Positions 1,550 to 15,313 of a DNA stretch of 49,316 bases are shown here, piece after piece (the stretch's first letter is position 1; each line of letters opens with the position of its first letter). The position numbers and the translations under genes were made by a program. This DNA is from Thermoanaerobaculia bacterium (GTDB taxonomy: Bacteria; Acidobacteriota; Thermoanaerobaculia; Thermoanaerobaculales; Sulfomarinibacteraceae): assembly GCA_027061805.1 (NCBI GenBank), contig JAMOWA010000045.1, forward strand, positions 1-49,316, in the 5' to 3' direction. The notes under the pieces are model-generated. The model searched no databases, had not been told where the DNA came from, and saw nothing but the letters and a program-made list of their open reading frames with translations.

Positions 1550-1596
1550 GCTGGCCTCCACCTGCGATCGAGTATACATTGGTTTCCCTGTCCGGA

Positions 1597-1622
1597 GGGA
1601 CACTTTACTCTGGATGTGTCCC
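1597..1622. repeat. Leader hairpin upstream of the ATPase gene
   Basis: Perfect inverted repeat GGGACAC / GTGTCCC (7-bp arms, 12-nt loop), starting 48 bp upstream of the chosen ATPase start. TCCCTG also occurs twice nearby (1585-1590 and 1619-1624). It could be an operator or an RNA hairpin in the leader. The sequence alone does not decide. Confidence 0.5.
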
Positions 1623-1668
1623 TGTTGGGAGAGCCAGTTGGTCGTGCGACGTCCGCCCACCCGTTCGC

Positions 1669-1690
1669 GAAACGTTAAACGTGAAACGAA
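1669..1690. repeat. Heptamer-type dispersed repeat (reverse orientation)
   Basis: On the minus strand this reads as three decayed copies of the heptamer CGTTTCA/CGTTTAA. It belongs to the same family as 15263-15293, 18790-18812 and 24756-24780. All four copies are intergenic. Confidence 0.6.
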
Positions 1691-1696
1691 GGAGAG

Positions 1697-1736
1697 TCAG
1701 GGAGTTAGAGCGTTACGAAGTCAGAAAGCGAGACGT
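1697..1736. repeat. Degenerate 8-bp-period tandem repeat
   Basis: Five successive octamers can be laid out: TCAGGGAG, TTAGAGCG, TTACGAAG, TCAGAAAG, CGAGACGT. The rest of the gap between the ATPase gene and the four-helix gene (to 1945) is GC-rich and low in complexity. I see no gene, RNA or terminator in it. Confidence 0.5.
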
Positions 1737-1945
1737 CGGGGGGCGATCCGCCGGACCGAGCGGGGGCGGATGGCGGCTTCGGAGATCGGGATCGGCGGCG
1801 GATAGCGGCGGCGGGAGATGGCGACCGCGCCCGGTGGTCTTCCTGGACGGGTCCCGGTTCGATCCGGCTGCTGAAGCGGGCCCGGCCGGGGTTTTCTCCC
1901 CCTCGCCCCTGCTCCACAGGGTGAGAGGGGGCCGTCTTCACTTCC

Positions 1946-2305
1946 TCACCGGGTGGACGGGTGGAGGAGCCTCCAGGTGGTGGCGCGGGAGCGGTCGAGG
2001 AGGGTGAGGGCGGTCTTGGCTCGTTCGGGGTCCACTGCACCGGCGCCGAGGAGGAGTCGTAGATGGATATCGGCTTCCTTCGCTGAGCCGTAGGCGATGC
2101 GCCAGTGGTGGAGCCTGTCGCGGCCGGTGCGGCCGTGGCCCTCGGCGAGGTTGGCGGGGACGGAGCTTACCGAGCGGATCAACTGGTCGGCCACGGGCCG
2201 CAGCGGTGCAGGCACCCTGCGAGCCAGCGCCAGTGCGATGGAAGCGGCTTCCATGGCGAGGTTGACGGCGTGGAGAGGGTGGCTGGGTTGACGGGTGTCG
2301 GGCAT
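1946..2305 (-). CDS. Four helix bundle protein (23S rRNA IVS-type / TIGR02436-like)
   Basis: 119-residue, all-helical small protein. The segment SVSSVPANLAEGHGR followed by GSAKEADIHLRLLL is the hallmark of the four-helix-bundle family first found as ORFs inside 23S rRNA intervening sequences and later as free-standing genes. Its biochemical role is unknown. The start at 2305 is preferred over the ATG at 2326 because GGAGGTGACC precedes it at good spacing. That ribosome-binding sequence lies inside the left outer arm of the large inverted repeat 2306-2446, so the same sequence occurs again in opposite orientation upstream. Confidence 0.75.
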   Translation of the reverse strand: MPDTRQPSHPLHAVNLAMEAASIALALARRVPAPLRPVADQLIRSVSSVPANLAEGHGRTGRDRLHHWRIAYGSAKEADIHLRLLLGAGAVDPERAKTALTLLDRSRATTWRLLHPSTR

Positions 2306-2446
2306 GGTCACCTCCGGGTCGTTCATGAAGGCGCTCCAGCTTCCGGGCGCCCCGGAGTCAAGGGCCGCGCAGCGGCCGGAGGTTCACCCTTGACGCCGGG
2401 GCGCCCGGAAGCTAGATCTTCGTGACAGAACGACCCGGAGGTGACC
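2306..2446. repeat. Large two-step inverted repeat
   Basis: Outer arms 2306-2324 and 2428-2446 are perfect 19-bp reverse complements. Inner arms 2338-2355 and 2396-2413 are perfect 18-bp reverse complements, extended after one mismatch by GTCAAGGG / CCCTTGAC. The segments between outer and inner arms do not match. The centre holds a small hairpin (GGCCGC-gca-GCGGCC). The whole could fold as a long cruciform or RNA hairpin. It resembles a paired REP/BIME-like or MITE-like unit, but I do not recognise the family. Confidence 0.8.
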
Positions 2447-2521
2447 GCCGCACCCCGCCGCCGCACCCCGCCGCCGCACCCCGCCGCCGCACCCCGCCGC
2501 CGCACCCCGCCGCCGCACCCC
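2447..2521. repeat. 13-bp tandem repeat, six copies
   Basis: The core GCCGCACCCC recurs at 2447, 2460, 2473, 2486, 2499 and 2512, each separated by GCC, giving an exact 13-bp period. Copies are essentially perfect. The array ends 8 bp before the extended -10 box of serS, so its last copies occupy the -35 region of that promoter. Confidence 0.9.
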
Positions 2522-2526
2522 GCTTC

Positions 2527-2535
2527 TGCTACCAT
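2527..2535 (+). promoter_or_regulatory. Extended -10 box of serS
   Basis: TGCTACCAT fits the extended -10 pattern TGnTAnnnT, 20 bp before the serS start codon. No -35 hexamer is visible because the tandem repeat occupies that position. Confidence 0.45.
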
Positions 2536-2555
2536 CCCGCCCCGGAGGAGGGGCC

Positions 2556-3836
2556 ATGCTGCCGCGAGAGCTTTTCAGGAAGGAACCCGAGCGGATCCGG
2601 GAGATGCTCCGGGCCCGCCACACGGAGGCGGACCTGGACCGGCTGCTGGAGGTGGACGCGGCCTGGCGCGAGGTGCTGGTCCGGGTGGAGGAGCTGAAGG
2701 CCCGGCGGAACGCGGGGTCCAAGGAGATCGGGAAGCTCTTCGCCGCGGGGCAGCGCGAGGAGGCCGAGGCCCGGAAGGCCGAGATGGGGGCGCTGGGCGA
2801 GGAGATCAAGGCGCTGGAGGCCCGGGCGAGGGAGCTCGAGGCCGAGCTCGCGGCCCTGGAGCTCACCATCCCCAACCTCTTCCACGAGTCGGTGCCCCTG
2901 GGGGCCTCCGAGGAGGACAACCGGGTGGAGCGCAGCTGGGGCGAGCCCCCCGACTTCGGCTTCGAGCCCAGGGCCCACTGGGACCTTGGGCCGGCGCTGG
3001 GGATCCTGGACTTCGAGCGGGCGGCCAAGGTGGCCGGGGCGCGCTTCGCCGTGCTCCGCGGGGCGGGAGCGGCCCTCGAGCGGGCGCTGATCACCTGGAT
3101 GCTGGACCTCCACGTGCGCGAGCACGGCTACACCGAGGTGCTGGTTCCCTACCTGGTCAACAGCGCCTCGCTGGAGGGCACGGGCCAGCTGCCCAAGTTC
3201 GCGGACGACCTCTTCAAGGTGGAGGGGCACGATCTCTACCTGGTACCCACGGCCGAGGTCCCGGTGACCAACCTCCACCGGGAGGAGGTGCTGGCCGGGG
3301 AGGAGCTGCCGCTCCGCTACTGCGCCTTCACCCCCTGCTTCCGGGCGGAGGCGGGCTCCTACGGCAAGGACGTGCGGGGCCTGATCCGCCAGCACCAGTT
3401 CCACAAGGTGGAGCTGGTGCAGATCGCCCATCCGGAGGCCTCCTGGGAACTTCTGGAGGAGCTCACCGGCCACGCCGAGGCGGTGCTCCAGGGGCTGGGG
3501 CTGCCCTACCGGGTGGTGAGCCTGTGCAGCGGGGACCTGGGCTTCTCCGCGGCCAGGACCTACGACCTGGAGGTCTGGCTCCCCGGCCAGCAGCGCTACC
3601 GGGAGATCTCCTCCTGCTCCAACTTCGCCGACTTCCAGGCCCGGAGGGCCCGGATCCGGTTCAAGTCCGCCGACGGCGGCAAGGCCCGTCTGGTCCACAC
3701 CCTCAACGGCTCGGGCCTGGCCATCGGGCGCACCCTGGTGGCGGTGCTGGAGAACTACCAGCAGCGGGACGGTTCCGTGGTGGTGCCCGAGGTGCTGCGG
3801 CCCCACATGGGTGGGCTGGAGGTCATCGAGCCGTAG
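2556..3836 (+). CDS. serS: Serine--tRNA ligase
   Basis: 426 residues, full length for SerRS. It charges tRNA-Ser with serine in the cytoplasm. Residues about 30-100 form the charged, helical tRNA-binding arm. Class II motif 2 is seen in [15 protein letters not shown], followed by the family block [31 protein letters not shown] and the class II motif 3 region ([17 protein letters not shown]) are near the C-terminus. A strong GGAGGAGGGG site precedes the ATG. It is followed by a 170-bp gap before gltX on the opposite strand. Two serine tRNA genes lie 1.7 kb downstream. Confidence 0.97.
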
Positions 3837-3855
3837 CCGCTCCGCCCGCCCGCCC

Positions 3856-3887
3856 GGTGAGGGGGTGAGGAGGTGAGGGCGTGAGAG
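3856..3887. repeat. 8-bp-period tandem repeat after serS
   Basis: Four consecutive octamers: GGTGAGGG, GGTGAGGA, GGTGAGGG, CGTGAGAG. It lies in the serS/gltX convergent gap, where no clear intrinsic terminator is visible. Confidence 0.6.
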
Positions 3888-4006
3888 TCACGGTGTGGTG
3901 CCCCCACTCACGCACGGTCTTCGAGACCACGGACGTAATCGGGCTGCCACACCGCTCCCCGCAACCGTCTCCCGCCACCGCTCGCCGCTGCCGAGGCGGC
4001 GGCGCC

Positions 4007-5461
4007 CTACTTCATCCCGCGGAGCGTCTCCATGGCCCGGCGGATCCGGCTGCGGCAGACCTCCTTGCCCAGCACCGCCATGGTCTCGAAGAGCGGCGGC
4101 GTGGCCGCCCGGCCCGTGACCGCCACCCGGACCGGCATGAAGAGCTCGCCCGGCCTGATCTCCCGGGCCTCGCAGAAGCCGCGCAGCGCCGCCTCGAGCG
4201 TTCCGGCGTCCCACTCCATGAGGGGGTCCAGCACCTCCTCCAGCAGCTTCCGGAGCAGCTTCGCGCTCTGGGGCGGGGTGAGCCCCTTGAGCACCAGCTT
4301 CTTCCGGGCGGCCTCGTCGTAATCCACCTCGTTGGTGAAGAAGAAGGCCGCATACTCCATGAAGTCTCCCAGGCGGTCGATGCGCTCCTGCACCAGGGGG
4401 ATCACCCGGTCCAGATAGGCGTCCGAGAGGAGCTCCGTCCGGAGGCGCTCCCGGAGCTCCCCGGTCTCCAGCGACCGCAGGTACCGCCCGTTGAGCCAGG
4501 TGAGCTTCTCCAGGTCGAAGACCGGCCCGCCCAGGGAGATCTTCGCGGGGTCGAAGACCTCGATGAGCTCCTCCAGCGTGAACTCGTCCCGCTCGTCCGG
4601 CATGGCCCAGCCCATGAGCGCCAGGTAGTTGAGCAGCGCCTCGGGCAGGAAGCCCGCCCTCCGGTACCAGTTCAGGCTCACCGGGTTCTTGCGCTTGGAG
4701 ATCTTGGAGCGGTCGGCGTTGCGCAGCAGCGGCAGGTGGCAGAACACCGGCTGCTCCCAGCCGAAGGCCTCGTACAGGCGCACGTGCTTGGGCAGCGAGG
4801 AGATCCACTCCTCGGCCCGGATCACGTGGGTGATCTCCATCAGGTGGTCGTCCACCACGTTGGCCAGGTGGTAGGTGGGGAAACCGTCGCTCTTGAGCAG
4901 CACCTGGTCGTCGATCTGGGCCGCGGCGAAGGTGATCTCGCCGCGCAGCAGGTCCCGGACCGTGATCTCGCCCTCCCGTGGCATGGCCAGCCGGATCACG
5001 TGGGGCTCGCCCGCGGCGCGCCGCCGCGCGGCCTCCCCTGGCGGGATGGTGCGGCAGTGGCCGTCGTAGCCCAGGTGGGCCGCCTTCGCCTTCCGCTGCT
5101 CCTCCCGGAGGGCGTCCAGGCGCTCCTTCGTGCAGAAGCAGGGGTAGGCGTCGCCCTGCGCCACCAGGCGCTCGGCGTGCTCCCGGTAGATCTCCGAGCG
5201 CTCCGACTGCCGGTAGGGCCCGAAGGGGCCGCCCACGTCGGGCCCCTCGTCCCACTGGAGCCCCAGCCAGGAAAGCGCCTCGAAGATCATCCGCTCCGAG
5301 GCCTCGTTGGAGCGCACCCGGTCCGTGTCCTCGATGCGCAGCACGAAGGCCCCGCCCGTGCGGCGGGCCAGCGCCATGTTGAACAGGGCCACGTAGGCGG
5401 TCCCCACGTGGGGGTCGCCCGTGGGCGAGGGGGCGATGCGGGTCCTGGCGGGTCGGGTCAT
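4007..5461 (-). CDS. gltX: Glutamate--tRNA ligase
   Basis: 484 residues, normal length for bacterial GluRS. It attaches glutamate to tRNA-Glu. The class I HIGH motif is in APSPTGDPHVGTA (residues about 11-23). The KMSKS equivalent is KISKRKN near residue 255. RIEDTDR and the LKSDGFPTYHLANVVDDH block confirm the family. The start at 5461 has GGGAGG 4 nt upstream. The coding region begins 11 bp downstream of an intrinsic terminator that follows the tRNA-Ser(GCU) gene on the same strand, so read-through from the tRNA promoter may feed gltX. Whether it is discriminating or also charges tRNA-Gln cannot be told from the sequence. Confidence 0.97.
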   Translation of the reverse strand: MTRPARTRIAPSPTGDPHVGTAYVALFNMALARRTGGAFVLRIEDTDRVRSNEASERMIFEALSWLGLQWDEGPDVGGPFGPYRQSERSEIYREHAERLVAQGDAYPCFCTKERLDALREEQRKAKAAHLGYDGHCRTIPPGEAARRRAAGEPHVIRLAMPREGEITVRDLLRGEITFAAAQIDDQVLLKSDGFPTYHLANVVDDHLMEITHVIRAEEWISSLPKHVRLYEAFGWEQPVFCHLPLLRNADRSKISKRKNPVSLNWYRRAGFLPEALLNYLALMGWAMPDERDEFTLEELIEVFDPAKISLGGPVFDLEKLTWLNGRYLRSLETGELRERLRTELLSDAYLDRVIPLVQERIDRLGDFMEYAAFFFTNEVDYDEAARKKLVLKGLTPPQSAKLLRKLLEEVLDPLMEWDAGTLEAALRGFCEAREIRPGELFMPVRVAVTGRAATPPLFETMAVLGKEVCRSRIRRAMETLRGMK

Positions 5462-5472
5462 GCGGCCTCCCG

Positions 5473-5496
5473 AAAAAGGCCGCCCCGGGGGCGGCC
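5473..5496 (-). terminator. Intrinsic terminator between tRNA-Ser(GCU) and gltX
   Basis: On the minus strand GGCCGCCCC and GGGGCGGCC pair around a single base and are followed by TTTTT. It terminates the tRNA transcript, and it also lies in what would be the gltX leader. Confidence 0.85.
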
Positions 5497-5508
5497 GACA
5501 ATCCGTGG

Positions 5509-5601
<93 letters not shown>

Positions 5602-5615
5602 GCACCGGGAGGGGT

Positions 5616-5646
5616 ATTGTACGCAGACGCCCCGTGGCTGTAAAGT
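5616..5646. promoter_or_regulatory. Overlapping divergent promoters of the two tRNA-Ser genes
   Basis: For the minus tRNA: -35 TTTACA (5644-5639), 17-bp spacer, -10 TACAAT (5621-5616), 15 bp before the tRNA. For the plus tRNA: -35 TTGTAC (5617-5622), 18-bp spacer, -10 TAAAGT (5641-5646), 11 bp before the tRNA. Each -35 box overlaps the -10 box of the opposite promoter. Confidence 0.7.
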
Positions 5647-5656
5647 TGCAGCCCCC

Positions 5657-5744
5657 GGAGGGGTGGCCGAGTGGTCGAAGGCGGCGGTCTTGAAAACCGC
5701 TGAGGCGCAAGCCTCCATGGGTTCGAATCCCATCCCCTCCGCCA
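5657..5744 (+). tRNA. tRNA-Ser (anticodon UGA), integration target
   Basis: Acceptor GGAGGGG pairs with CCCCTCC. The D arm starts TGGCCGAGTGG. The anticodon loop CTTGAAA gives TGA. A long variable arm and T-arm GGTTCGAATCC follow, then discriminator G and encoded CCA (5742-5744). Its last 14 bases (5731-5744) are repeated at 13961-13974, marking it as the attachment site of the integrative element to its right. The gene remains intact. Confidence 0.95.
5731..5744 (+). other. attL: tRNA 3' end copy of the 14-bp att core
   Basis: The 14-mer CATCCCCTCCGCCA ends exactly at the encoded CCA of tRNA-Ser(UGA). CCCTAGTAGACA at 5759-5770 is close to CCCCTAGACA at the other end (13875-13884). CTAGT (5761-5765) and ACTAG (5773-5777) form an inverted pair here. 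These are candidate integrase arm sites. The rest of 5745-5946 shows only a weak possible promoter (TTACGA, 16 bp, TATCCC) for the cargo operon. Confidence 0.8.
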
Positions 5745-5946
5745 GAGAATCCTTCCAACCCTAGTAGACACAACTAGTTACGATCACCCCAGAAAGACAT
5801 ATCCCACACACGGTCCCACAGCCCGCGCGTGGTATGGAGGCCATTTCGGCGCCCGTCCTCCGCCCCACCTGCCCCCCGGTACACACCGCTCGGGGCAGGA
5901 ACAGGGGCCGCCCCGGGGCAGGAAGCACCCCTCGGAGGACATGGAC

Positions 5947-6309
5947 ATGACAACAGCAGCACAGGACAACACGGAGATCATCGTCAAGCGGGACGGGGAC
6001 CGGGACCTTGAGTTCCAGGGAGTCCTCCTCGGTTCCGGGGCCATGAAGAACGGGACCGGGCGTGGGACGGACGTGAGCATCTACCGCACCGCCGCCGGCC
6101 GGTACGTCATGGCGGTGCGCGCCTGGACCCAGTGGCAGGGCGAGCACGATTCCCACCGCGCCACGGTGTGCGACACCCCGGAAGAGGTGCTCGCGTGGCT
6201 CCGCCAGGATGCCGGCGGCGCCCTGGGCCCGGCCTCGAAGGAGGCCCTCGAGGAAGCGGCAGGCGCGGACACGGGCCTCGCCGCCGTGCTCACCGAGCGG
6301 ATCGGGTGA
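5947..6309 (+). CDS. Hypothetical protein, first gene of element cargo operon
   Basis: 120-residue protein of unknown function. It has the pattern KRDGDRDLEFQGVLLG followed by IYRTAAGRYVMAV and a region ending PEEVLAWL. That layout (a strand with F-x-G-x-L-L, then Y-R-T-x-x-G-x-Y) resembles small EXLDI-type proteins of actinobacteria, but this is a weak likeness from memory. The start at 5947 is preferred to the in-frame ATG at 5941 because the GGAGG at 5934-5938 is 8 nt away rather than 2. It heads four tightly packed genes and ends 10 bp before the next. No signal peptide or membrane segment is seen. Confidence 0.65.
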   Translation: MTTAAQDNTEIIVKRDGDRDLEFQGVLLGSGAMKNGTGRGTDVSIYRTAAGRYVMAVRAWTQWQGEHDSHRATVCDTPEEVLAWLRQDAGGALGPASKEALEEAAGADTGLAAVLTERIG

Positions 6310-6319
6310 GGAGGGCGCC

Positions 6320-6646
6320 ATGAACACCAAGCCCATCGAGTCGCTCATCCAGGAGCTGGAGGTCTGGCGCCTGAAAGCCCTCAACGTCGCCCGCAAGCTC
6401 GAGGCGGAAGCCTCGGCCGCTGAGCCCGTCGCCGTGGTCGCCGACACCAGGTACACCCTCGAGCGCTGGGCGGCGGATTCCATCCGCCATGTTGCGGGCG
6501 AAAGGGACGGCATCCCGTACCTGCTCGACTACCTCCGGGAGCTTCTCGACCTGGAAGAGCGCAGACGGGTGGTTCTCGAGGCCGCCAGGTACGACGCAAC
6601 CATCATCGCCGAACGGATCGAGGGTGAGGGGAGGGCGCCATGTTGA
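6320..6646 (+). CDS. Hypothetical helical protein, cargo operon
   Basis: 108-residue, mostly helical and charged protein (IESLIQELEVWRLKALNVARKLEAE near the N-terminus). No recognised domain. It starts at an ATG preceded by GGAGGG. An in-frame extension upstream to 6209 is a shadow of the previous gene. Its last codons overlap the start of the next gene (ATGTTGA), suggesting translational coupling. It could be a partner protein of one of its neighbours. I do not assign a function. Confidence 0.6.
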   Translation: MNTKPIESLIQELEVWRLKALNVARKLEAEASAAEPVAVVADTRYTLERWAADSIRHVAGERDGIPYLLDYLRELLDLEERRRVVLEAARYDATIIAERIEGEGRAPC

Positions 6647-6852
6647 TTCAGCTGTGGAACGGCGAGATCATCGGCGCCTCGATCACCACGGACCATGCGG
6701 CAAGCTCACACGGGCAGCCCGTCCTCGTTCTCGAGGACGGTTCCGCCCTGGGGCCCGGCGACGCGGAGGGGCTCGGGATCATCGAGGCGACCCTCGAAGA
6801 GCTCCGGGACCTCGCCGCCGGGGGATACTCTCTCCAGGGAGATGAAGGATGA
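6640..6852 (+). CDS. Small hypothetical protein, cargo operon
   Basis: 70 residues. The sequence looks like a compact beta fold: LWNGEIIGASITTDHAASSHG, then PVLVLEDGSALGPGD, then IIEATLEELRDLAAGGY. Proteins with the PVLVLxDG and EATxEE pattern seem familiar as small ORFs on plasmids and integrated elements, but I know no function. It overlaps the preceding gene by 7 bp and the following one by 4 bp (ATGA), so it is translated as part of a coupled operon. Confidence 0.6.
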   Translation: MLIQLWNGEIIGASITTDHAASSHGQPVLVLEDGSALGPGDAEGLGIIEATLEELRDLAAGGYSLQGDEG

Positions 6853-7082
6853 AGGGAGCCGTGATGTGTTCCGCGTGCAAGCACGACCACCTGGTGCAGG
6901 GGCGTCCAGTGGACTGGGATTCTCCTCCAACGTGCGATGCATTCCCTACGGGGATCCCGGACGTGATGGGTGACGGAGGCGACCACCGCGAGCCCATCGA
7001 GGGAGATCACGGGATTCGCTTCGAGCCGGTCGATGACGAGGCCGCGGCCTGGGCCGAGATGGTCTGGGGGAAAAAGCCGTGA
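6849..7082 (+). CDS. Small Cys-His protein with TCDAFPxGIP motif, cargo operon
   Basis: 77 residues. It has CSACKHDH near the N-terminus, then TCDAFPTGIPDVM, then GGDHREPIEGDHGIRFEPVDD. The order CxxCKH, TCxAFPxGIP, DHRxPxxGDxGIxFE is one I recall from a widespread family of short uncharacterised proteins. The Cys and His residues could bind a metal. The start overlaps the previous stop (ATGA). A second start at 6864 with GGGAG before it would drop five residues. The operon ends here, 24 bp before a strong terminator. Confidence 0.65.
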   Translation: MKGAVMCSACKHDHLVQGRPVDWDSPPTCDAFPTGIPDVMGDGGDHREPIEGDHGIRFEPVDDEAAAWAEMVWGKKP

Positions 7083-7106
7083 GAAGCATCACCAACGGGT
7101 AACACC

Positions 7107-7137
7107 GGGGCCGGAGGGAATGTTGCCCTCCGGCCCC
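7107..7137. terminator. Bidirectional intrinsic terminator
   Basis: Perfect 12-bp stem GGGGCCGGAGGG / CCCTCCGGCCCC around a 7-nt loop, followed on the plus strand by TTCTT. It sits between the convergent cargo operon and the minus-strand element genes. Confidence 0.9.
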
Positions 7138-7171
7138 TTCTTCGTGGTCACGCAGGTCAAGCCTTCCCCGA

Positions 7172-7729
7172 TCAGTCCAGCAGCCGCGCCCGCCGCATCG
7201 CCGCCTGGAATGCTGCGGCCCGCTTCTCGCCCTCCGCAAGCCGTTCGACGGCCACATCCAACTCCAGGGACTCGAGCTCATCAACAAGCCGGTGGAAGAC
7301 ATTCGAGGCCATGTCGGGCGGTTTCGTGGCCAGGCAGGCCGTGAACAGCTCCTCCGTGTCCGGGATCCCGAGCCTTGCGCGGAGCCCCTCCAGCTTTCGC
7401 TCCAGGCGCGCATGATGTGTAACCCGGGTGGTCTGGTACACAAGGCCCAGGCAGGTCCGGCACCCAAGGGCACCATCAACGGTGTGAAGCCGATACCGCC
7501 CGGCACCGCACCGGGGGCAGATGAAGGACGGAAAGGAACCGCCTCCAGCGCATGGGTGCCACCGGACGAACACCACGTGCTCCACATCATCCCCGACGAT
7601 CACCCGGACCAACCCACAGCCGTCAGGGATGGCACCAGTACGGCGCCACTCCCGAATGTCAACGGCAGGTGTGCCGTCCACGGTTCGTCGCCCTGGCGCG
7701 ACATGCCGCCCCGACCCCACCCCGCCCAC
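7172..7729 (-). CDS. MGGxGSGR-type zinc-ribbon protein of mobile elements
   Basis: 185 residues, GTG start. The N-terminus MGGVGSGRHVAPGRRTVDG matches a family of small proteins (MGGxGSGR) often seen in prophages and integrated elements. The centre has a zinc ribbon, CPRCGAGRYRLHTVDGALGCRTC, with two C-x2-C knuckles, followed by LVYQT. The C-terminal 80 residues are helical and charged. The role is unknown; DNA or RNA binding is plausible. It is the last gene of the minus-strand unit, 7 bp after the preceding stop. Confidence 0.7.
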   Translation of the reverse strand: MGGVGSGRHVAPGRRTVDGTPAVDIREWRRTGAIPDGCGLVRVIVGDDVEHVVFVRWHPCAGGGSFPSFICPRCGAGRYRLHTVDGALGCRTCLGLVYQTTRVTHHARLERKLEGLRARLGIPDTEELFTACLATKPPDMASNVFHRLVDELESLELDVAVERLAEGEKRAAAFQAAMRRARLLD

Positions 7730-7736
7730 AGCCCGG

Positions 7737-7979
7737 TCACTCCCCCCCAGCGTTCACTCGCGCATGACGCTCGATCAGCGCGAAGAGCTCGGGTAGCCGA
7801 ACCGACACATCAATACCGTCCAGCGCCAGCTCGGCCTCGATGCCGATTGCCTCGAGTAGCTCCTTGAGTGGGCAGAGAACCACCCACGCGCGTCCATCCG
7901 CCGGCCGCCAGCGGTACCGCCGTACCGCAGACCACAGCCGCTCGTGTGCCCCGGCCATCGCCTCGTGTTCGTCATTCAT
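7737..7979 (-). CDS. Small hypothetical protein in element
   Basis: 80 residues, no recognised domain. It contains an aromatic and basic N-terminal part (LWSAVRRYRWRPADGRAWVVL) and a helical C-terminus. GAGAGGAG precedes the ATG at 7979 at good spacing. A longer open frame upstream is a shadow of the next gene. It lies 7 bp from the zinc-ribbon gene and about 70 bp from the gene upstream. Confidence 0.6.
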   Translation of the reverse strand: MNDEHEAMAGAHERLWSAVRRYRWRPADGRAWVVLCPLKELLEAIGIEAELALDGIDVSVRLPELFALIERHARVNAGGE

Positions 7980-8049
7980 GGAACGCTCCTCTCTGGATTC
8001 TGGAGGCGCCCGGGGGTCGGACCCGGGCCGCCTGGAGATTTCGGAAAAA

Positions 8050-8730
8050 TCAGTCGCCGATGTCCAGCGGGTCCGGATCGTGCCCGGCCTCCTTCTGGAA
8101 CAGCGCCTCGAGGTTGGCGAGAGCCTTGCGCACGACCTCCACCCCGCGGCGAAGCTGTTCGAGCTCCTTCGCGGCGGCGGGGTCGAGCCCGGCCCACAGG
8201 GCAGCCTCCACCTCCGGCCGGACGCCCTCGGGCACCAGGCCGAACACAGCGGGCCCGTCGAGGGTAGCGGCCAGGGTCTCGGTGTCCCCAGCCCTCGCGG
8301 CCCGACGCAGCACCCCCTCGACCTCGAGCGGGTCGATGGATCGGAGGTGGCTCCGGATCTCCGCAGCCCGGAGCTCCGCCCGAACGTCCCCGAGCTTCTG
8401 GGCGGGGTCCACGGCCTTCCGGAAGTCGGCCTCGATGGCGGCGATGCGGTCGAGGGCATTCTGGAGCGCTCTGCTCCGCAAGCCTTCGACCTTCCCGAGG
8501 GCCTCCCCGGCGAGCCGGACCCGCAGCTTCGCCAGGCCGTGCCCCGAGAGCTCGCCGGCGGCGGCGGCATCCTGGATCTTCCGGTTGAAGACCTCGAGGA
8601 TCCCCACGGCGCTCAGGTAGGCCGCCTTGAGGAGCCCGAGCGGATCGAGCTTCTTCTCCGGAACGAGATCCGAGGGCCAGATCCCGAGCAGGGCGGTGGT
8701 TTCGAGGTCAGTCACTGGTGCATTCGGCAT
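8050..8730 (-). CDS. Hypothetical helical protein in element
   Basis: 226 residues, strongly helical, rich in Ala, Leu, Glu and Arg. No motif is recognised. The C-terminal third (LEQLRRGVEVVRKALANLEALFQKE) could form a coiled coil, and the tail is acidic (DPDPLDIGD). The start at 8730 is chosen for the GAGGAGAAG site just upstream; the frame extends to 8823 without such support. It overlaps the small upstream ORF by 23 bp. It could be a replication accessory or a scaffold-like protein, but nothing in the sequence proves either. Confidence 0.65.
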   Translation of the reverse strand: MPNAPVTDLETTALLGIWPSDLVPEKKLDPLGLLKAAYLSAVGILEVFNRKIQDAAAAGELSGHGLAKLRVRLAGEALGKVEGLRSRALQNALDRIAAIEADFRKAVDPAQKLGDVRAELRAAEIRSHLRSIDPLEVEGVLRRAARAGDTETLAATLDGPAVFGLVPEGVRPEVEAALWAGLDPAAAKELEQLRRGVEVVRKALANLEALFQKEAGHDPDPLDIGD

Positions 8731-8911
8731 TGTTCTTCTCCTCTTGGTCCGTGCCCGCGGTGGCGGGCGGTTGATCGTCGGGCGTCCCGCCCTGGGCGTT
8801 GGGTCGAAGGGCAGGCATCCCACCCGCCGGGTTTACATAATCAAGGTTATCGGCCAGCCGTCGGCGCCGACGCCGTAACACCATTCGTTTCAACACCTTG
8901 GAAATGGTCAC
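8708..8911 (-). CDS. Possible small basic/acidic ORF in element
   Basis: 67 residues from a GTG at 8911, with GGGGGTG upstream. It begins with a basic patch (RMVLRRRRRRLADN), then has an acidic, low-complexity tail. Its 3' end overlaps the next gene by 23 bp. It fills most of an otherwise empty gap below the primase-helicase gene. No family is recognised, and coding status is uncertain. Confidence 0.35.
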   Translation of the reverse strand: MTISKVLKRMVLRRRRRRLADNLDYVNPAGGMPALRPNAQGGTPDDQPPATAGTDQEEKNNAECTSD

Positions 8912-9038
8912 GTCGGCACCCCCTGGGGCAGTCCGTGGCTCACGGTTTCGCAGTGGGCCACCGCTTTCTGAGAACACCCCTGGCACCACAGGCTGGTTCC
9001 TTGCGCTTCCTCGTGCTTTCTGGTGCAACGTCGCAAGA

Positions 9039-11417
9039 TCACCCCTCCTCTCTCGGTAACCCACGGATGGCCTTCTCCCGCCCTGCCCGCCCGATTTCTC
9101 TAGCAGCGGCCGCGATGGCCTCGGCAGAACCGCGGACCCCAGCCTCCCACGCGGAGCGCACCTGGGATTGAGCGGTCGTTCGGTCTGTTCCAGATCGTTC
9201 GAGTTCTGCGGCGGCATACCGAGCTTCGGCTGGCCAGGACTTCGGCTCGCCGAGCTTCTCCATACCCTTCGCCGTCCCGCCGTCCCACGCCGTCCCATCA
9301 CCGTCCCGGACGGGCGAGACGGGGTCCCGCGTCAAGCGGCAGGACGCCGTCCCGCCGTCCCGGGGGGTATAGGGGGGGTGTGTCACACACACCTCGGTCG
9401 AATCGGCGGCCGAGTACACGGTCCGGCGTGAGTTGCCCGTCCGGACGGCCAAGCCCCGGGAAATGGCCACATCGAGCGCTGTCCGCCCCCGCGCGGCCCG
9501 CAGCCCGGCAGCTCGCGCCACGGCGTCCTTCGATCCGAGCGGACCCTCTCGCCGGAGCGCGTCCACCACCGCCCGCACGTCGGCATCGAGGGCTTCGGCC
9601 ACCGCCGCCTGCTCGGCCGATTTCTCCGCGTCCAGGTCCTCCTCGGTCTGGGCGACGAGAAGGTGATCCCTCCACACGAGCCGAACCGGGTCCAGCTTGA
9701 GGGAATAGTTCGATTTCGCCTGCTCGAACACAACGGCCCCATTCTTTTCGGCGAGCAGCGTCCCAACCCACCGAGCAGCGTCCGTGATGCCAGACACACC
9801 GCGAACGTCCGCGCTCCCAAGCCGGCGGGAGAGCTTCGAAGAATGGGCGGCCACCAGAACCGTCGGCCCCCCAGGTGCGCCCGTGAGCGTCTCAACAGCC
9901 TGCAAGAATCGAGTCGCGTGATAGTTGTCGGCCTCGGCTCCCTCCTGGGCAAACCGCGAAAACGGGTCGATTCCAACAAAGCCCCACGGCCCGCCAGATC
10001 CGAGCAGCTCCACCAGGTCCCGATAAAACTGCGTCTCCAGAACCTCGCCGCGCGCGGTCGTTTCCAGCAAACCCACCGGACACCCGGCAAGCGGGACAAC
10101 GGTCAGCCGGTCCGCGATCAACTCCCGTTCTGCCTCGGAAAGCTGTAGAGCGGTCGCGATTGTCCAGAGGCGCCGGTGCACCTCCTCGAGCTCTTCCTCG
10201 CCCAGGAGGAGCGCGGCTCTTTCGCCAACCGCATCGTCGTCCGGCGGGAAGCACCCGAACCACGGCCTCCCGGCGATCACAGAAACGGCCAGGTAGAGCA
10301 GGGACAAGGTCTTGCCCGCACCACCTTCACCAGCCAGGACACCGGCCCTGCCGCGGGGGAGCAGCCCCTTGCCGTCCGAACGTCGCAGAAGCCAGCGGCG
10401 GGCCGGTGGGGGCGTCGTCAAAAAGGCGAGTCCAACGGGCTTCCAGAGGTCGCAGAGGATGCCGTGGCCGCTCGGTGAGTCCTCGGCCGTAATCTGGGGC
10501 GCGGTCTCGACCAGCTCCCGCAGCTGTTCGACGGTCCACCCTTCCGGCGGATCGTCCGCGACATCCCACGAAGCCGGGAAATCGCCAGGGACACGCACGA
10601 CCCGAACGTCAGAGGCTCCGGCCTCCCGGGCCGCCTGGGCCACGCTTTCGGCGTACGTTCGCCCCGGATCGTCAGCGTCCGGCCAGATGACCACCCGCCG
10701 GCCCTCGAGCGGGCGCCAGTCGGTCTTCTGCGCCGCGGAACTTCCCCCGCTCGACGTGACGGCCACGTAGCCCGGGAACAGCTCGCCCGCAGCATCGGCG
10801 GTTTTCTCACCTTCGACGATCAACACCAGGGCCTCGGGTCTCTCGGCCAGGCGGTCGAGCCCGTACAGTGGCCTCGGGGCCGGCGGAGCCTTCGAGATCC
10901 ACCGGCGGGCCGCGCGGTCGAAGCACCACGGTCGGATGGCCTTGCCAACATCGCCGGTCTCGTAGCGTGCGACCAGGAAGAGGGGCCAGCCGTCCTGGTC
11001 CCGGTACGTCCACACACGGGCGGGCGCGCCAAGGCCATTCCGAAGGAGGCCAGGCGTCGGCTCGGGGGCATCCTCTGGCACCCGCAGCCCGGACCAAGCA
11101 TCTACCCTGTGAGGCTCTCCGGCTGAACGTGCATACCTGCCGCCGCTGGGAGGCGCCTCAGGGCCGGGGAACAGGTCTGCCGGAGCCAAGCCGAGAGCGC
11201 CGAGCACGTCATCAAGCGAGCACCCAGCATGGCAGGTCAGCAGCGCGCGGCCGTCATCACCCTCCTCGAGGTGGAGCGCAGGGCTCCGACGGTTCCCGTT
11301 CTCGTGACGCCGAGAAGGGCAGCGCGCACGCCAGCCGGACCCCTCGGGCCTCGGATGGCAGTCGGCGGATTCAAGCCGCTCGAGCACCAGGTCAACGGGC
11401 CGAGCCGCCGCACTCAT
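9039..11417 (-). CDS. Primase-helicase fusion (CHC2-like zinc finger, TOPRIM-like, RepA/RecA-like ATPase)
   Basis: 792 residues. The N-terminal zinc finger resembles a DnaG-type CHC2 motif, with likely ligands C33, H38, C62 and C66 (ARCPSRRHEN and LTCHAGCS). A TOPRIM-like segment follows around residues 195-250, with VLIVEGEKTADAA (conserved Glu) and VVIWPDADDPGR (DxD). Near residue 365 there is a Walker A, GEGGAGKT, and further on a Walker B, GFVGIDPFSRF, then AHSSKLSRR and VSGITDAARWV as in RepA/RecA-like hexameric helicases. It probably starts replication of the excised element. GGGGGTGAGAG precedes the ATG. Its 3' region contains a cluster of CCGTCCC repeats that may serve as origin iterons. 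Confidence 0.85.
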   Translation of the reverse strand: MSAAARPVDLVLERLESADCHPRPEGSGWRARCPSRRHENGNRRSPALHLEEGDDGRALLTCHAGCSLDDVLGALGLAPADLFPGPEAPPSGGRYARSAGEPHRVDAWSGLRVPEDAPEPTPGLLRNGLGAPARVWTYRDQDGWPLFLVARYETGDVGKAIRPWCFDRAARRWISKAPPAPRPLYGLDRLAERPEALVLIVEGEKTADAAGELFPGYVAVTSSGGSSAAQKTDWRPLEGRRVVIWPDADDPGRTYAESVAQAAREAGASDVRVVRVPGDFPASWDVADDPPEGWTVEQLRELVETAPQITAEDSPSGHGILCDLWKPVGLAFLTTPPPARRWLLRRSDGKGLLPRGRAGVLAGEGGAGKTLSLLYLAVSVIAGRPWFGCFPPDDDAVGERAALLLGEEELEEVHRRLWTIATALQLSEAERELIADRLTVVPLAGCPVGLLETTARGEVLETQFYRDLVELLGSGGPWGFVGIDPFSRFAQEGAEADNYHATRFLQAVETLTGAPGGPTVLVAAHSSKLSRRLGSADVRGVSGITDAARWVGTLLAEKNGAVVFEQAKSNYSLKLDPVRLVWRDHLLVAQTEEDLDAEKSAEQAAVAEALDADVRAVVDALRREGPLGSKDAVARAAGLRAARGRTALDVAISRGLAVRTGNSRRTVYSAADSTEVCVTHPPYTPRDGGTASCRLTRDPVSPVRDGDGTAWDGGTAKGMEKLGEPKSWPAEARYAAAELERSGTDRTTAQSQVRSAWEAGVRGSAEAIAAAAREIGRAGREKAIRGLPREEG
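9272..9361. repeat. Cluster of six CCGTCCC repeats inside the primase-helicase gene
   Basis: CCGTCCC occurs at 9272, 9280, 9290, 9301, 9347 and 9355. The copy at 9301 forms a palindrome with GGACGG (9301-9313). GTGTGT-C-ACACAC lies about 15 bp further on. The encoded protein segment is low in complexity (repeated DGGTA/DGTA). The arrangement resembles replication iterons, but it could simply be the coding repeat. Confidence 0.5.
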
Positions 11418-11476
11418 CTCTCACCCCCGGGTCGTCGCCTCCCGGCGAGTGGAACAGGGTGGACAAATGGTGTAAA

Positions 11477-11547
11477 CTGGCATTGCCAGCCGGCCAGCAC
11501 ACCAGGCCGGTTCCGGCACCACCCGTCGCCCCGCCACCAGGCGGGGC
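11477..11547. promoter_or_regulatory. Inverted repeats in the alpA/primase gap
   Basis: Two structures lie in this 153-bp gap. CTGGCA-T-TGCCAG at 11477-11489 is a perfect inverted repeat, 60 bp upstream of the primase-helicase start. GCCCCGCC-acca-GGCGGGGC at 11528-11547 is a stable hairpin just after the alpA stop. The first is a candidate operator. The second may be a weak terminator, but it has no T-run on the minus strand. Confidence 0.45.
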
Positions 11548-11570
11548 GGCCCCTTTCAGAGCCGCGCATG

Positions 11571-11759
11571 TCAGCGCTCCGTGGTGCGGCGCCGGGATTC
11601 GATCCACTCCTGAACCTCGCTCGCGCGCCAGGCGACGGCACGTTCGGAAATCCGAAGGGGAACGGGAAACTCTCGCCGCTCGAGCAACCTGTACACGGTC
11701 GCGCGGGAGAGCCCTGTCAACTCAGTGACGGTCTGGATCCGGAGAAGACGTTCGTTCAT
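11571..11759 (-). CDS. AlpA-like helix-turn-helix regulator / excisionase
   Basis: 62 residues. The sequence LLRIQTVTELTGLSRATVYRLLER, followed by FPVPLRIS and AVAWRASEVQEWIESR, is the standard winged-HTH (MerR-like) AlpA/excisionase pattern. In P4-like elements AlpA activates the integrase or acts as excisionase. AGGAGG lies 7 nt before the ATG at 11759, which excludes the longer frame to 11795. It lies between the integrase pair upstream and the primase-helicase downstream on the same strand, with its own AT-rich leader. Confidence 0.85.
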   Translation of the reverse strand: MNERLLRIQTVTELTGLSRATVYRLLERREFPVPLRISERAVAWRASEVQEWIESRRRTTER

Positions 11760-11776
11760 GTGGTCCTCCTGGTGGC

Positions 11777-11875
11777 TGCATGCCATTCCATGCATCCACA
11801 GTGAACCGCATAAAACATTATTTCAACAGGACTTACAGGATTTGTCAGGACATTTCAGGGGCAGAAGATGCCCCG
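11777..11875. promoter_or_regulatory. AT-rich leader of alpA with operator-like repeats
   Basis: TGCATG-ccattc-CATGCA (11777-11794) is a perfect inverted repeat between the likely promoter and the ribosome site of alpA. From about 11828 the motif CAGGA(C/T)TT recurs roughly every 10 bp (CAGGACTTA, CAGGATTTGT, CAGGACATTT, CAGG). GGGGCA-gaaga-TGCCCC (11859-11875) is a small hairpin downstream of the next gene's stop. The stretch is distinctly AT-rich for this window. Confidence 0.5.
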
Positions 11876-11905
11876 CAAGTGTCCGGATGCTAGGCGGTGA
11901 TGCGA

Positions 11906-12583
11906 CTACCGGAGCGGAAACTCGAGCTCCTGCGCGAGCCGTTTCGCAGCCTTGCGGACACCATCCGCCCCCATGGCGCCGTCCCTGCGGGCGACCTGCT
12001 CCCAGCTCCACCCGTCGATGTTCCTGTGGAGAAGCCAGCGGAGGCGCCTGTCATCCCCGAAGCTCCGCCTTTCGGGCGTGGCCGAGTTCTCCGCGATCCA
12101 CTCGAGGTACTGGTCCACGGCAGCATGGAGCTCCTTCCGCGCGTGCTCCCTCGGTCCGCCAACCTGCAACCTCCATGCGGCCTCCGTTCCCTCCAGACGG
12201 ACCCCCTCAGAGGTCGCCTCCGTGCGTTTCCTGGCCTGAAGCTCCGGAGCTCCGGCGCGGCCCTCCGCCTGGGGGTCCCATCCCAGGCAGAGCTCGACCG
12301 GCACCAGCGGGAGCCCGCTTGCTTCCTCCAACAGTCGAGACCATTCGTCTGTTGCGCTCCGCCTGGTGGTGTGGCACGCCGTGATGACCGCCCCGGCATG
12401 GCCGACGATCCACGGACAATCGAGACCCCAGCGCGCGGCCCACTCTTTCGCTCCACCGACGATGGGCCTCCCCTCGAGGTCCGCGACCACGTGCGGCCAT
12501 TCGTCCACGATCAGCTCGAGCAGCCGATGGCTGAGCGCGTCCCGTTGCCGAACCGCACCCGTGGGGTCAACGGGCCTTGTCAT
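11906..12583 (-). CDS. Hypothetical element protein coupled to integrase
   Basis: 225 residues, starting at an ATG that overlaps the integrase stop (ATGA at 12583-12580), so it is very likely co-translated with the integrase. The middle contains WIVGHAGAVITACHTTRRSATDEWSRLL and VELCLGWDP. The C-terminus has LRWLLHRNIDGWSWEQVARRDG, which looks like a helix-turn-helix, then VRKAAKRLAQELEFPLR. I recognise no named family. The coupling suggests a role in recombination control or DNA binding. The frame continues upstream to 12775, but only as a shadow of the integrase gene. Confidence 0.7.
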   Translation of the reverse strand: MTRPVDPTGAVRQRDALSHRLLELIVDEWPHVVADLEGRPIVGGAKEWAARWGLDCPWIVGHAGAVITACHTTRRSATDEWSRLLEEASGLPLVPVELCLGWDPQAEGRAGAPELQARKRTEATSEGVRLEGTEAAWRLQVGGPREHARKELHAAVDQYLEWIAENSATPERRSFGDDRRLRWLLHRNIDGWSWEQVARRDGAMGADGVRKAAKRLAQELEFPLR

Positions 12584-13803
12584 CGTTCGCCCCGAATCGG
12601 CACCACTTCCCCGGCCGGCCTGGGCGTGGTGCAGAAGGTCCCCCATTCCCGCATGAGCTGGCACCGTTTCTCGAAGAGGTCCCCTCTTCGGTACGCGGCC
12701 TCCACCTGGTTCCGCACCACATGGGCCAGGGCGGCCTCCGCGACATCCGAGGGATAGGCCGTGGTCTCCGCGCACCAGTCCCGGAACGAGCTTCGGAAGC
12801 CGTGAACCGTCACCGAGACGCCCATGTCCCGGAGCACCTTGGTGAGCGACATGTCCGAGAGCTGGCGCCCGGTCATCGGGGAGGGGAACACGAGCTCCGT
12901 TCCCTCCAGTAACGGGAGGGCCTTGAGGAGGCGCACGGCCTCATCGGAAAGCGGCACCCGGTGCTCCCGCTTCGACTTCATCCGTTCTGCCGGGATGGTC
13001 CAGACCTTCGCCTCGAGGTCGATCTCGTCCCACGTTGCGCCGCGCACCTCCCCGGAGCGGGCGGCGGTCAGGATCGCGAACTCGAGCGCCCGGGCCGCCA
13101 TGCCCTGCTTTTCCCGGAGCCCCACCACGAACTCCGGCACCTGGGCCCACGGCATCGCGCGGAAGTGCGCACGTCTTCCCCTCGCCGGCAGGAGCGCCTG
13201 GAGGTTACCCTTCCATCGTGCCGGGTTCGGCCCGTCCCGGAGCCCGAGCACAGTGCACCAGTCCAGGACCCGCTCGATCCTCCCCCGGACCCGGGATGCT
13301 GTCTCGGCTTTCTCTTCCCAGATGGGGCGCAGCGCCCGGAGCACATCGTCAACACCGATCTCGTCAACCCGGAGTGACCCGATGGCAGGGTAGGCGTAGG
13401 TCTTGAGGGTCGAGGCCCACTGTGCCCGGTGCTTGTGGTTCGACCAGCGGGAGGCGTGAGCCTTGACGTAGTCCTCCGCCGCCTCCCTGAAGGTCGGCAC
13501 ATGGCGCTCCCCTGCTCGGCGCTCCGCGATGGGGTCTCTCCCTTCGTGAAGCACGCGCAGCCAGTCGAGCGCCAGTTCCCGGGCGCGCTTCAACGTGATG
13601 ATGGGCCAGGGTCCGAGTCCCATGTCACGGCGCCGCCCGTGGTAGACGTATCGGAGCACCCAGCTCCGCCGGCCGTTCGGCCGCACGTGCAGGTAGAGGT
13701 TTCGGCCGTCGGCGTAGCGGCCCGGTGGAGCCACCGCCACCCATCGAGCGGAGAGCCTGTTCACGCCCCGGCGGCGGGTCTCCTTCTTGTCCTGGTCCCT
13801 CAT
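12580..13803 (-). CDS. int: Tyrosine recombinase / P4-type integrase
   Basis: 407 residues. The N-terminal arm-binding part has LYLHVRPNGRRSWVLRYVYHGRRRDMGLG, as in DUF4102 P4-type integrases, then a SAM-like core-binding domain around residues 100-190. The catalytic set is complete: Arg in ILTAARSGEVRG (about 250), Lys in MKSKREHRVPLS, HGFRSSFRDW (His-x2-Arg), His in AALAHVV, and Tyr in AAYRRGDLF (about 367). It integrates the element at tRNA-Ser(UGA). It lies 157 bp inside attR, transcribed inward, with a good promoter (TTGTCT, 17 bp, TATACT). Confidence 0.95.
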   Translation of the reverse strand: MRDQDKKETRRRGVNRLSARWVAVAPPGRYADGRNLYLHVRPNGRRSWVLRYVYHGRRRDMGLGPWPIITLKRARELALDWLRVLHEGRDPIAERRAGERHVPTFREAAEDYVKAHASRWSNHKHRAQWASTLKTYAYPAIGSLRVDEIGVDDVLRALRPIWEEKAETASRVRGRIERVLDWCTVLGLRDGPNPARWKGNLQALLPARGRRAHFRAMPWAQVPEFVVGLREKQGMAARALEFAILTAARSGEVRGATWDEIDLEAKVWTIPAERMKSKREHRVPLSDEAVRLLKALPLLEGTELVFPSPMTGRQLSDMSLTKVLRDMGVSVTVHGFRSSFRDWCAETTAYPSDVAEAALAHVVRNQVEAAYRRGDLFEKRCQLMREWGTFCTTPRPAGEVVPIRGER

Positions 13804-13856
13804 TTTTCACCGCCTTCCCGGGCCATAATCCGGTCCCTCATTCGGCCCGCGATTGC

Positions 13857-13908
13857 AGTATATCCCATGAGACGCCCCTAGACAAAAGAGCCCCTAATGT
13901 GTTACATT
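13857..13908 (-). promoter_or_regulatory. Integrase promoter with overlapping candidate arm site
   Basis: On the minus strand: -35 TTGTCT (13885-13880), 17-bp spacer, -10 TATACT (13862-13857). CCCCTAGACA (13875-13884) overlaps the -35 and resembles CCCTAGTAGACA near attL. GCCCCTA also recurs 16 bp away (13890). AATGT-gtt-ACATT (13896-13908) is an inverted repeat just upstream of the -35. Confidence 0.6.
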
Positions 13909-13960
13909 TCAGGAGATGCGAGAGACCCGACGAAACGGCCTGAGACGTGGGTTTGGCGGA

Positions 13961-13974
13961 CATCCCCTCCGCCA
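13961..13974 (+). other. attR: distal copy of the 14-bp att core
   Basis: Exact copy of CATCCCCTCCGCCA found at the end of tRNA-Ser(UGA). Flanking bases differ on both sides. Confidence 0.85.
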
Positions 13975-14005
13975 CGGAAACCCTCCCCCGAAACCACTCT
14001 GGCGG

Positions 14006-14998
14006 TCAGATCGCCTCCCGGAATCTCTCGTAGCGCCACCTGAGGCGGTCGGGATCCGGGCGTCGGTTCCGGGACCTCGGAAGGTAGAGCCGGATCCGAT
14101 GGATTCCCTGAAGGCCGTGCCGGAGCATGGGGCCGTCCCGCTCTTCCAGGATCTTCGGGTGGACCTCCACGATGTAGTCCGGGCGGATGCCCACCAGCTT
14201 CGCGTCGAAGGCCGCATGGTGGAGCTTGCACAGGGCGAGCCCGTTCACCACAACGGGCTCCCCTCCATCCTCTCCGTCGGGAACGATGTGAGCGGCGTCC
14301 AGGAGCTCCCGATGCCTCAGGCGACAGAGCGCGCAGTGCTCCCGGTAGGCCTCCAGCACCCTTTCCCGAAACCCTCGCTGGTGCAGGCGCTGCCGTACCG
14401 CGCTGGTGATGTAGTGCCTCCGGGCATCATCTTCCGCGGTATCTGCGGCATCCGGCTCCGGCACGGGTTGCGGATAGGTCCCGGAATCCGTTGAGCTCGT
14501 CTCCTTTCCCACGAGGGACACCAGGCTCCTTTCGCCAAGACGCCAGTCGTCCGCAGCAACCGTGAACGTCAGGCTCCCCGGGTCATCCCCCACGATGTAG
14601 ACGGGCCATACCGCGAGATAGAGTCCCTTGACCACGCCATGGAAGTAGACCAGAGGCACCCTCGATCGCATGGCCTTTCTCAGGCCCACGTTGTCCCGGT
14701 GCGCTGGATCCGTACCCCTGTAGGCGTACCGCAGCAGGTCGTCCCCTCCAAAATGATCGTCGTAGGGACCCGCCGCCGAGGTCCGGATGGACAGGGGAAT
14801 CTCCGGCAGGATGGCCGGCTTGAAGATTCCCTGCTGGGACAGGAGTGGAACACGCTGCCCCTCGAAGGTGAAACCACGGAGAAGGAGGGACCACGGAAGG
14901 ACATCACCGAGCACGTTCACCTGCTCTTCCAGCCACCGGAAGGCCGCCAGGCGTACCCGGGCATCCCAACGCTGTTCCGAGAGGTCCACGACATCCAT
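14006..14998 (-). CDS. HNH endonuclease, predicted restriction-type (COG3440-like)
   Basis: 330 residues. The N-terminal 170 residues match the predicted-restriction-endonuclease pattern: AAFRWLEEQ, LPWSLLLRGFTFEGQRVPLL, QGIFKPAILPEIPLSIRT, LLRYAYRGTDPAHRDN, PLVYFHGVVKGLY. The C-terminal HNH domain has HCALCRLRHRELLDAAHIVPD and NGLALCKLHHAAFD, with two C-x2-C/H knuckles for zinc. No methylase is nearby, so a modification-dependent (type IV-like) role in phage defence is plausible but unproven. GGGAGG precedes the ATG at 14998; the frame to 15271 lacks support. It lies 31 bp outside attR. Confidence 0.8.
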   Translation of the reverse strand: MDVVDLSEQRWDARVRLAAFRWLEEQVNVLGDVLPWSLLLRGFTFEGQRVPLLSQQGIFKPAILPEIPLSIRTSAAGPYDDHFGGDDLLRYAYRGTDPAHRDNVGLRKAMRSRVPLVYFHGVVKGLYLAVWPVYIVGDDPGSLTFTVAADDWRLGERSLVSLVGKETSSTDSGTYPQPVPEPDAADTAEDDARRHYITSAVRQRLHQRGFRERVLEAYREHCALCRLRHRELLDAAHIVPDGEDGGEPVVVNGLALCKLHHAAFDAKLVGIRPDYIVEVHPKILEERDGPMLRHGLQGIHRIRLYLPRSRNRRPDPDRLRWRYERFREAI

Positions 14999-15313
14999 GG
15001 TACGCCCTCCCCGGTTCGGGAATAGCGGATGGGAGCCGGGCGGCGGCGGCGACAGCATCCGGCGGCAGCGGCGGGCAGCGTCGGCGTCGGCGACAGTATC
15101 CGGCAGCGGCGGACGGCGACGGCCGGATAACGGGGCGGTCACGTGACCCCTGCCCCCCCTCTCCCCTGTACCTTCGCGCGGACAGACACGAACGACCTGT
15201 CCAAATCCGTCCAATTCCTCAGAATCCGTGGTTCTCCTCCCCCCGGGCGGGCGGGGGCTCCTTCGTTTCACGTTTCACGTTTTACGTTTCACGACCTGCC
15301 ATGCGTCCGCCCC
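14999..15313. other. Repeat-rich intergenic stretch
   Basis: This gap holds a GC-rich low-complexity block (15020-15140, decayed CGGCGGCGACAG-like units), then CCTGTCC / AATCCGT / AGAATCCGTGG repeat sequence (15197-15235), then the heptamer repeat. No gene or RNA is seen. Confidence 0.5.
15263..15293. repeat. Heptamer dispersed repeat CGTTTCA, four units
   Basis: CGTTTCA, CGTTTCA, CGTTTTA, CGTTTCA, CG. It is the longest copy of the family in this window and lies between lptD and the HNH nuclease gene. Confidence 0.8.

Follow-up and report, generated by a model that had tools for sequence, protein, structure and literature searches.

Boundaries and gene content of the element

The window (the whole stretch of 49,316 nucleotides that was analysed) contains a tRNA-Ser(TGA) gene on the plus strand (5657–5744; ARAGORN, CCA encoded), which is the integration target and whose last 14 bases, CATCCCCTCCGCCA, form the left att core copy (5731–5744). 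The repeat search placed the right copy of CATCCCCTCCGCCA, also on the plus strand, at the integrase end (13961–13974), and the two copies of the tRNA 3' end delimit 8,244 bp of the window (5731–13974), in agreement with a preliminary description that had reported a 14-bp direct repeat around 8.2 kb in tRNA-Ser(UGA). When both strands of the whole 3,097,420-base host assembly were searched, the 14-mer was found twice, both times at the ends of the element, and the number of chance copies expected from composition was about 1.4e-4 per 10 kb, or 0.09 per genome. A chance origin of the repeat, named earlier as a possible refutation, is therefore ruled out. Together with its element-side arm, the right core (GGCGGA-CATCCCC-TCCGCCA) forms an inverted repeat around 7 central bp, as in many of the sister elements described below.

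In four relatives (G005, G010, G017, and G019), lptD follows tRNA-Ser(TGA) after approximately 50–175 bp, representing the empty site. Since the same distance in the window is approximately 9.6 kb, the insertion at tRNA-Ser(TGA) is real. These empty sites also dispose of a second suggested refutation, that the inner genes would always be present at the locus without the integrase; this did not occur. The tRNA–lptD insert of the window consists of the 8.24 kb between the repeats and 1.34 kb (13975–15313) outside them. The outer segment, which reaches from the right repeat towards lptD and lies beyond the repeat-bounded element, contains an HNH endonuclease gene (14006–14998; PF13391) and is missing from several relatives. 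In G007, 4.5 kb of other genes are located between tRNA-Ser(TGA) and lptD, and this finding together with the HNH segment makes the interval look like a hot spot. A short run of TTTCACGTTTCACGTTTTACG-type repeats (15260–15292) immediately precedes lptD in the window. In G009 (L059:14550–15173), a small helical ORF is followed by an ORF that resembles a reverse transcriptase by eye; the latter runs into the tRNA-Ser(TGA) end, where it appears truncated, and the fragment had no match in Pfam.

The codon-model caller predicted eleven genes inside the element, and the starts of the primase gene and orf185 were extended to the longer ORF. The order on the minus strand is int, orf225, AlpA, primase-helicase, orf226, orf80, and orf185, and on the plus strand orf120, orf108, orf70, and orf77. 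Eight of the eleven genes are uncharacterised, a count slightly below the 'nine or so' given previously. The tyrosine integrase (12580–13803, minus strand; 407 aa) has Arm-DNA-bind_3, Phage_int_M, and Phage_integrase domains; it is full length, with all catalytic residues present (R249, K276, H334, R337, H361, and Y371), and is placed at the end distant from the tRNA, pointing inward. Overlapping int by 4 nt (ATGA) is orf225 (11906–12583, minus strand), for which no family was matched in PHROGs, NCBIfam, or Pfam and no homology to the same-position genes of other elements was detectable. By its position, orf225 is a candidate excision accessory comparable to iolg of the PICMI elements discussed below.

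The next gene encodes a 62-aa AlpA-like excisionase/regulator (11571–11759, minus strand; PF05930, 1.5e-19; phrog_2790). It is followed by the primase-helicase (9039–11417, minus strand), in which a CHC2-like zinc finger (CPSRRH...CHAGC), a Toprim domain (EGEK...DADD), and an AAA_25 domain (Walker A GEGGAGKT) are combined in one ORF of 792 aa. The complete integrase, AlpA-like regulator, and primase-helicase fusion of the preliminary description were thus all verified. Searching phages and plasmids with the primase by tblastn gave partial matches only, at less than 60% identity, and single-sequence scans of viral contigs with the primase and orf225 found nothing. A related primase is present in L017, a locus holding terminase-like genes.

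Among the remaining genes on the minus strand, orf226 (8050–8730) encodes an all-helical protein with homologues in G013 and G446, orf80 (7737–7979; codon model) has no assigned function, and orf185 (7172–7729) encodes a zinc-ribbon-like protein with a homologue within sister element L074 and no Pfam match. On the plus strand, orf120 (5947–6309) shows a weak similarity to the EXLDI family that stays below the cut-off (NCBIfam TIGR04342: 4e-7, 30.4 bits; cut-off 32), orf108 (6320–6646) and orf70 (6640–6852), both predicted by the codon model, have no assigned function, and orf77 (6849–7082; codon model) matched phrog_33375, a family without assigned function, at 5e-4.

In Pfam, PHROGs, and NCBIfam, the element proteins matched none of the capsid, terminase, portal, tail, relaxase, and T4SS families, and neither a cos/pac site nor a terminase was found in the element. 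The earlier statement that structural, packaging, and transfer genes are lacking was accordingly upheld, and the hidden capsid or packaging genes that might have overturned it were not recognised in these searches. PADLOC detected no defence system inside the element, its one weak match being to a DnaG-like domain in the primase.

Sister elements and helper search

Five related integrases were aligned and used in one scan of genome contigs, and the best 79 loci, a sample of the nearest integrases only, were examined. All of these were from Pseudomonadota, with integrases 47–57% identical. The results showed that in 28 of the 79 best loci a 14–17-bp repeat of a tRNA-Ser 3' end on the int side bounded an element. 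The isoacceptors used were CGA, TGA, GCT, and GGA, and int was located at the end away from the tRNA in 27 of the 28 elements, as in the window, with the orientation reversed in L080. The preliminary description can therefore be extended by the observation that the nearest integrases share a site type, 14–17 bp of the tRNA-Ser 3' end, with int nearly always at the far end. The int-side copy was mostly 100–200 bp from int. The elements measured 5.3–11.3 kb (median 9.1 kb, the window element counted), a range cut off from above, since only 10-kb flanks were searched and longer elements could not be bounded. The window element has the features that define this tRNA-Ser group, namely a related integrase and a 14–17-bp tRNA-Ser 3'-end repeat with about 5–12 kb between.

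In the aligned int-side copies, a GCGGA-like arm often precedes the core, and the site then resembles an inverted repeat (GGCGGA-N7-TCCGCC); the arm is not invariant among the sister elements. Known sites escaped a stricter core pattern. With the looser half-site pattern used in its place, for which some chance matches are expected, an att site was found near int in 73 of 100 integrases. On a quick integrase tree, the att-site label was clustered (12 changes vs 23.9 in shuffles), and the window integrase fell among the tRNA-Ser integrases, pairing with that of Glycocaulis L084 with moderate support (86). Integrase relatives from the host's own phylum were mostly placed in another clade and lacked the full site, which is present in G211 and G299.

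Comparison of 32 elements (the 28 bounded elements, the window element, L015, L016, and L021) showed int throughout; 22 of them have AlpA, and 13 encode AAA helicases that form one cluster of relatives. In 12–13 of the 29 tRNA-Ser elements, int and the next gene overlap by −4 or −1. L021 (G042; 955–8268) is a 7.3-kb int-plus-primase element, and the 21-bp repeat that bounds it derives from the anticodon region of a tRNA-Leu(TAA) gene. In Sphingomonas sp. AR_OL41 (L089:4571–15924), two int-containing units are repeated with a 6,773-bp period, and exact identity begins at the att core (4571) and continues for 4,581 bp, as far as the examined stretch reaches. Tandem insertion is a possible explanation, to which assembly effects could contribute.

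Isolated phage terminase, capsid, or tape-measure genes were present in 10 of the 28 bounded sister elements. TerL was identified in L076 and L093 by PHROGs and in L130 and L147 by homology, and TerS in L088, L142, and L147 by PHROGs. A capsid or capsid-protease gene was matched in L088 and L137 (PHROGs), with a capsid-like match in L080 (homology), and a tape-measure gene in L076, L084, and L110 (PHROGs). A long protein of L081 looks like a tape measure by eye only and had no PHROGs match. Most sister elements had no particle gene in the screens run. Among IMG/VR relatives, capsid-like or terminase matches occurred in 14 of 34 loci.

The host itself has a second intact element of 5.9 kb on contig C18 (L015:8150–14043), located in tRNA-Leu(GAG) with a 17-bp repeat. 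Its layout, int, orf215, AlpA, and a DnaB-N/AAA_25 helicase, is similar to that of the window element. In a relative, G004 (L037), a broken-looking integrase and an AlpA occur at the same tRNA-Leu(GAG). In G020 (L016:1561–13935), tRNA-Leu(CAA) is occupied by an element of 12.3 kb, which has a 30-bp repeat, encodes a helicase 51% identical to the window primase-helicase over the AAA part, and also carries a lone tail tape-measure gene (5080–7200).

Helper prophages in the same genome, which the preliminary description had advised to look for, were sought with portal and TerL profiles. None was recognised in the host assembly of 68 contigs, a result that does not prove absence. The portal family PF04860 had no match in the assembly, and the TerL profile phrog_2 gave one match (3.9e-6) to the ATP-binding part of an ORF of approximately 358 aa. 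We judged this protein to be a host ATPase, similar matches being present in relatives.

Homologues of orf226 were found in G013 (51%), behind a replication-initiator-like gene, and in G446 (L200; 30%, E 7.6e-9), where TerS (1e-10) and TerL (1.8e-20) precede the homologue with one small gene in between. The L200 segment with these three genes (6551–12743) is likely a satellite or prophage fragment, with any integrase off the contig. An iterated orf226 profile also reached L076, in which the homologue directly follows TerL, as well as L082, L089, and L116. The link between orf226 and TerL is thin, with 30% identity in L200 and L076 reached by the iterated profile only, and since profile iteration on few sequences can drift, we regard it as suggestive only. 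The predicted fold of orf226 is all-helical (pLDDT 83), and a fold search gave no structural match below E 0.1. Neither orf226 nor orf225 matched PHROGs, and no homologue of orf226 or orf185 was found in phage records. Comparison of orf226 with the post-TerL proteins of L093 and L130 gave no support for a relationship, and with proteins of L119, L140, L148, and L082 a weak match was obtained (probability 30%) and rejected.

Comparison with known satellites

PICMIs are phage-inducible chromosomal minimalist islands of Vibrionaceae with a DUF3987/DUF5906 primase and integration at fis, and in Vibrio their gene order is int, a gene overlapping int by ATGA, alpA, and primase (PMC10803314). PICMI excision is abolished when int, alpA, or the int-overlapping gene is deleted, and copy number falls in the absence of the primase; a gene overlaps int by 1, 4, or 13 nt in 21 of 35 PICMI subfamilies, and no complete PICMI was found outside Vibrio by the authors of that study (PMC10803314). 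The window element likewise has colocalised int, alpA, and primase genes in the same order and with the same ATGA overlap, and both kinds of element have a size of about 6–8 kb, no capsid-remodelling genes, and a direct repeat upstream of int. They differ in that the window element uses the 3' end of tRNA-Ser(TGA) instead of fis, has a zinc finger/Toprim/AAA_25 primase instead of DUF3987/DUF5906, and contains more accessory genes. Lacking the fis site and the DUF3987/DUF5906 primase, it is not a PICMI by definition.

The published definition of P4-like satellites includes Psu, delta, epsilon, and alpha (PF07455, PF04606, PF10554, and PF03288; PMC8628076), none of which had a Pfam match among the eleven called proteins. 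For a capsid-size protein such as Sid, the observation is confined to PHROGs, where orf226 and orf225 had no match. Although the window element resembles P4-like satellites in its tRNA insertion, P4-type integrase (PF00589; 31% identity to P4 Int over 93%), AlpA (PF05930), and primase-helicase, it has a different target tRNA and a different primase type, and without Psu, delta, epsilon, and alpha a P4-like assignment in the strict sense is not supported. Its gene order is closer to that of PICMI than to that of P4. The preliminary description of a P4-like satellite or minimal integrative replicon thus holds for an integrative, self-replicating, satellite-like element, whereas its P4-like part is confined to the integrase type and AlpA.

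The int-AlpA-replication module is also shared with PICI and cfPICI. These have TerS and/or a capsid module, whereas the window element has neither TerS nor a capsid gene; some sister elements add TerS and a capsid/protease gene to the module, as in PICI and cfPICI. Neither the relaxase or T4SS families expected of a mobilizable or conjugative integrative element (Pfam/NCBIfam) nor the head, tail, or terminase genes of a temperate phage (Pfam and PHROGs) were matched. VEIMEs and tycheposons are small integrated marine satellite-like elements, and their travel in virions or vesicles has been proposed. The window element, likened to them by description only, is also small and integrated; both groups are named in PMC10803314 and PMC11389934.

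Nature of the element and alternatives

Taken together, we consider the 8.24-kb element likely to be a minimal phage satellite in its integrated state, which can probably excise and copy itself and whose spread seems to depend on a phage. Its integrase alone is no proof of this, since relatives serve full-size phages (47.5% identity in Acidovorax phage Acica and 45% in Caulobacter phage DMCA; temperate phages with related integrases are 37–52 kb) and also occur in plasmid records. The satellite reading is supported by the sister elements, which on sequence comparison combine the same integrase type and att site with stray phage genes. Since the gene order and the ATGA overlap are those of PICMI, we propose by analogy that, in the presence of an active helper phage, Int would act with AlpA as excisionase and with the int-overlapping orf225 to release the element as a circle, in which 13974 is joined to 5745, and to restore the tRNA, and that the 792-aa primase-helicase would start replication. 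The terminase and capsid of the helper phage would then package the element DNA, as we infer from the sister elements. Two other elements have a distant homologue of orf226 closely following their terminase genes, for which reason the orf226 product may act at the packaging step.

The same genes could belong to a small phage-independent integrative replicon (an integrative plasmid or cryptic mobilizable island) that, once excised, would replicate and reach new cells through conjugative mobilization or natural uptake. The lack of a particle or packaging gene, the plasmid records among the integrase relatives, and the eight uncharacterised genes would suit such a replicon, but the protein scans revealed no relaxase or T4SS family. 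Against it also stand the phage genes (terminase, capsid, or tape measure) of sister elements that share its att site and int-AlpA arrangement, and the location of orf226 homologues beside terminase genes. We find this explanation rather unlikely. A decayed prophage, in which a temperate phage has lost its late genes and kept the end for integration and replication, would agree with the related integrases of 37–52-kb temperate phages and with the related primase near terminase-like genes in L017. Such decay is hard to reconcile with predicted genes that are all intact, with a size in the range seen for many sister elements that inserted independently, and with a complete int-orf225-AlpA-primase block between precise att repeats at the two ends. 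The other intact element of the host (5.9 kb, in tRNA-Leu), with its similar layout, speaks against decay as well, and we hold this explanation to be quite improbable.

Defence genes are frequent in phage satellites and islands, and the HNH gene just outside the element matches a PADLOC HNH model, which could point to an anti-phage or cargo island reusing a satellite-type integration module. Since PADLOC recognises no defence system inside and there is little room for cargo, there is very little to be said for this possibility.

With a minimal phage satellite as the preferred reading, the window element may belong to an undescribed family, which we put forward tentatively. It would comprise 5–12-kb elements of Pseudomonadota and the host's group whose integrases recognise serine tRNA 3' ends and in which an int-AlpA-replication core is accompanied by one borrowed phage gene, which differs between members (terminase, capsid-protease, or tape measure), or by none; the part of the phage particle that is taken over may thus vary from member to member. 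In the literature covered, which included few of the subscription journals, no description of a tRNA-Ser-specific satellite family was found, and the family is at most a candidate for a new one.

As a minimal satellite, the window element would extend PICMI-like elements beyond Vibrio. The integrase type together with the 14-bp tRNA-Ser 3'-end repeat provides a search handle, which gave 28 bounded elements from one database scan. Elements with a common integration module and differing phage genes would lend themselves, as a series, to the question of which step of particle formation a satellite must control, and would offer a route to helper phages in lineages without cultured phages.
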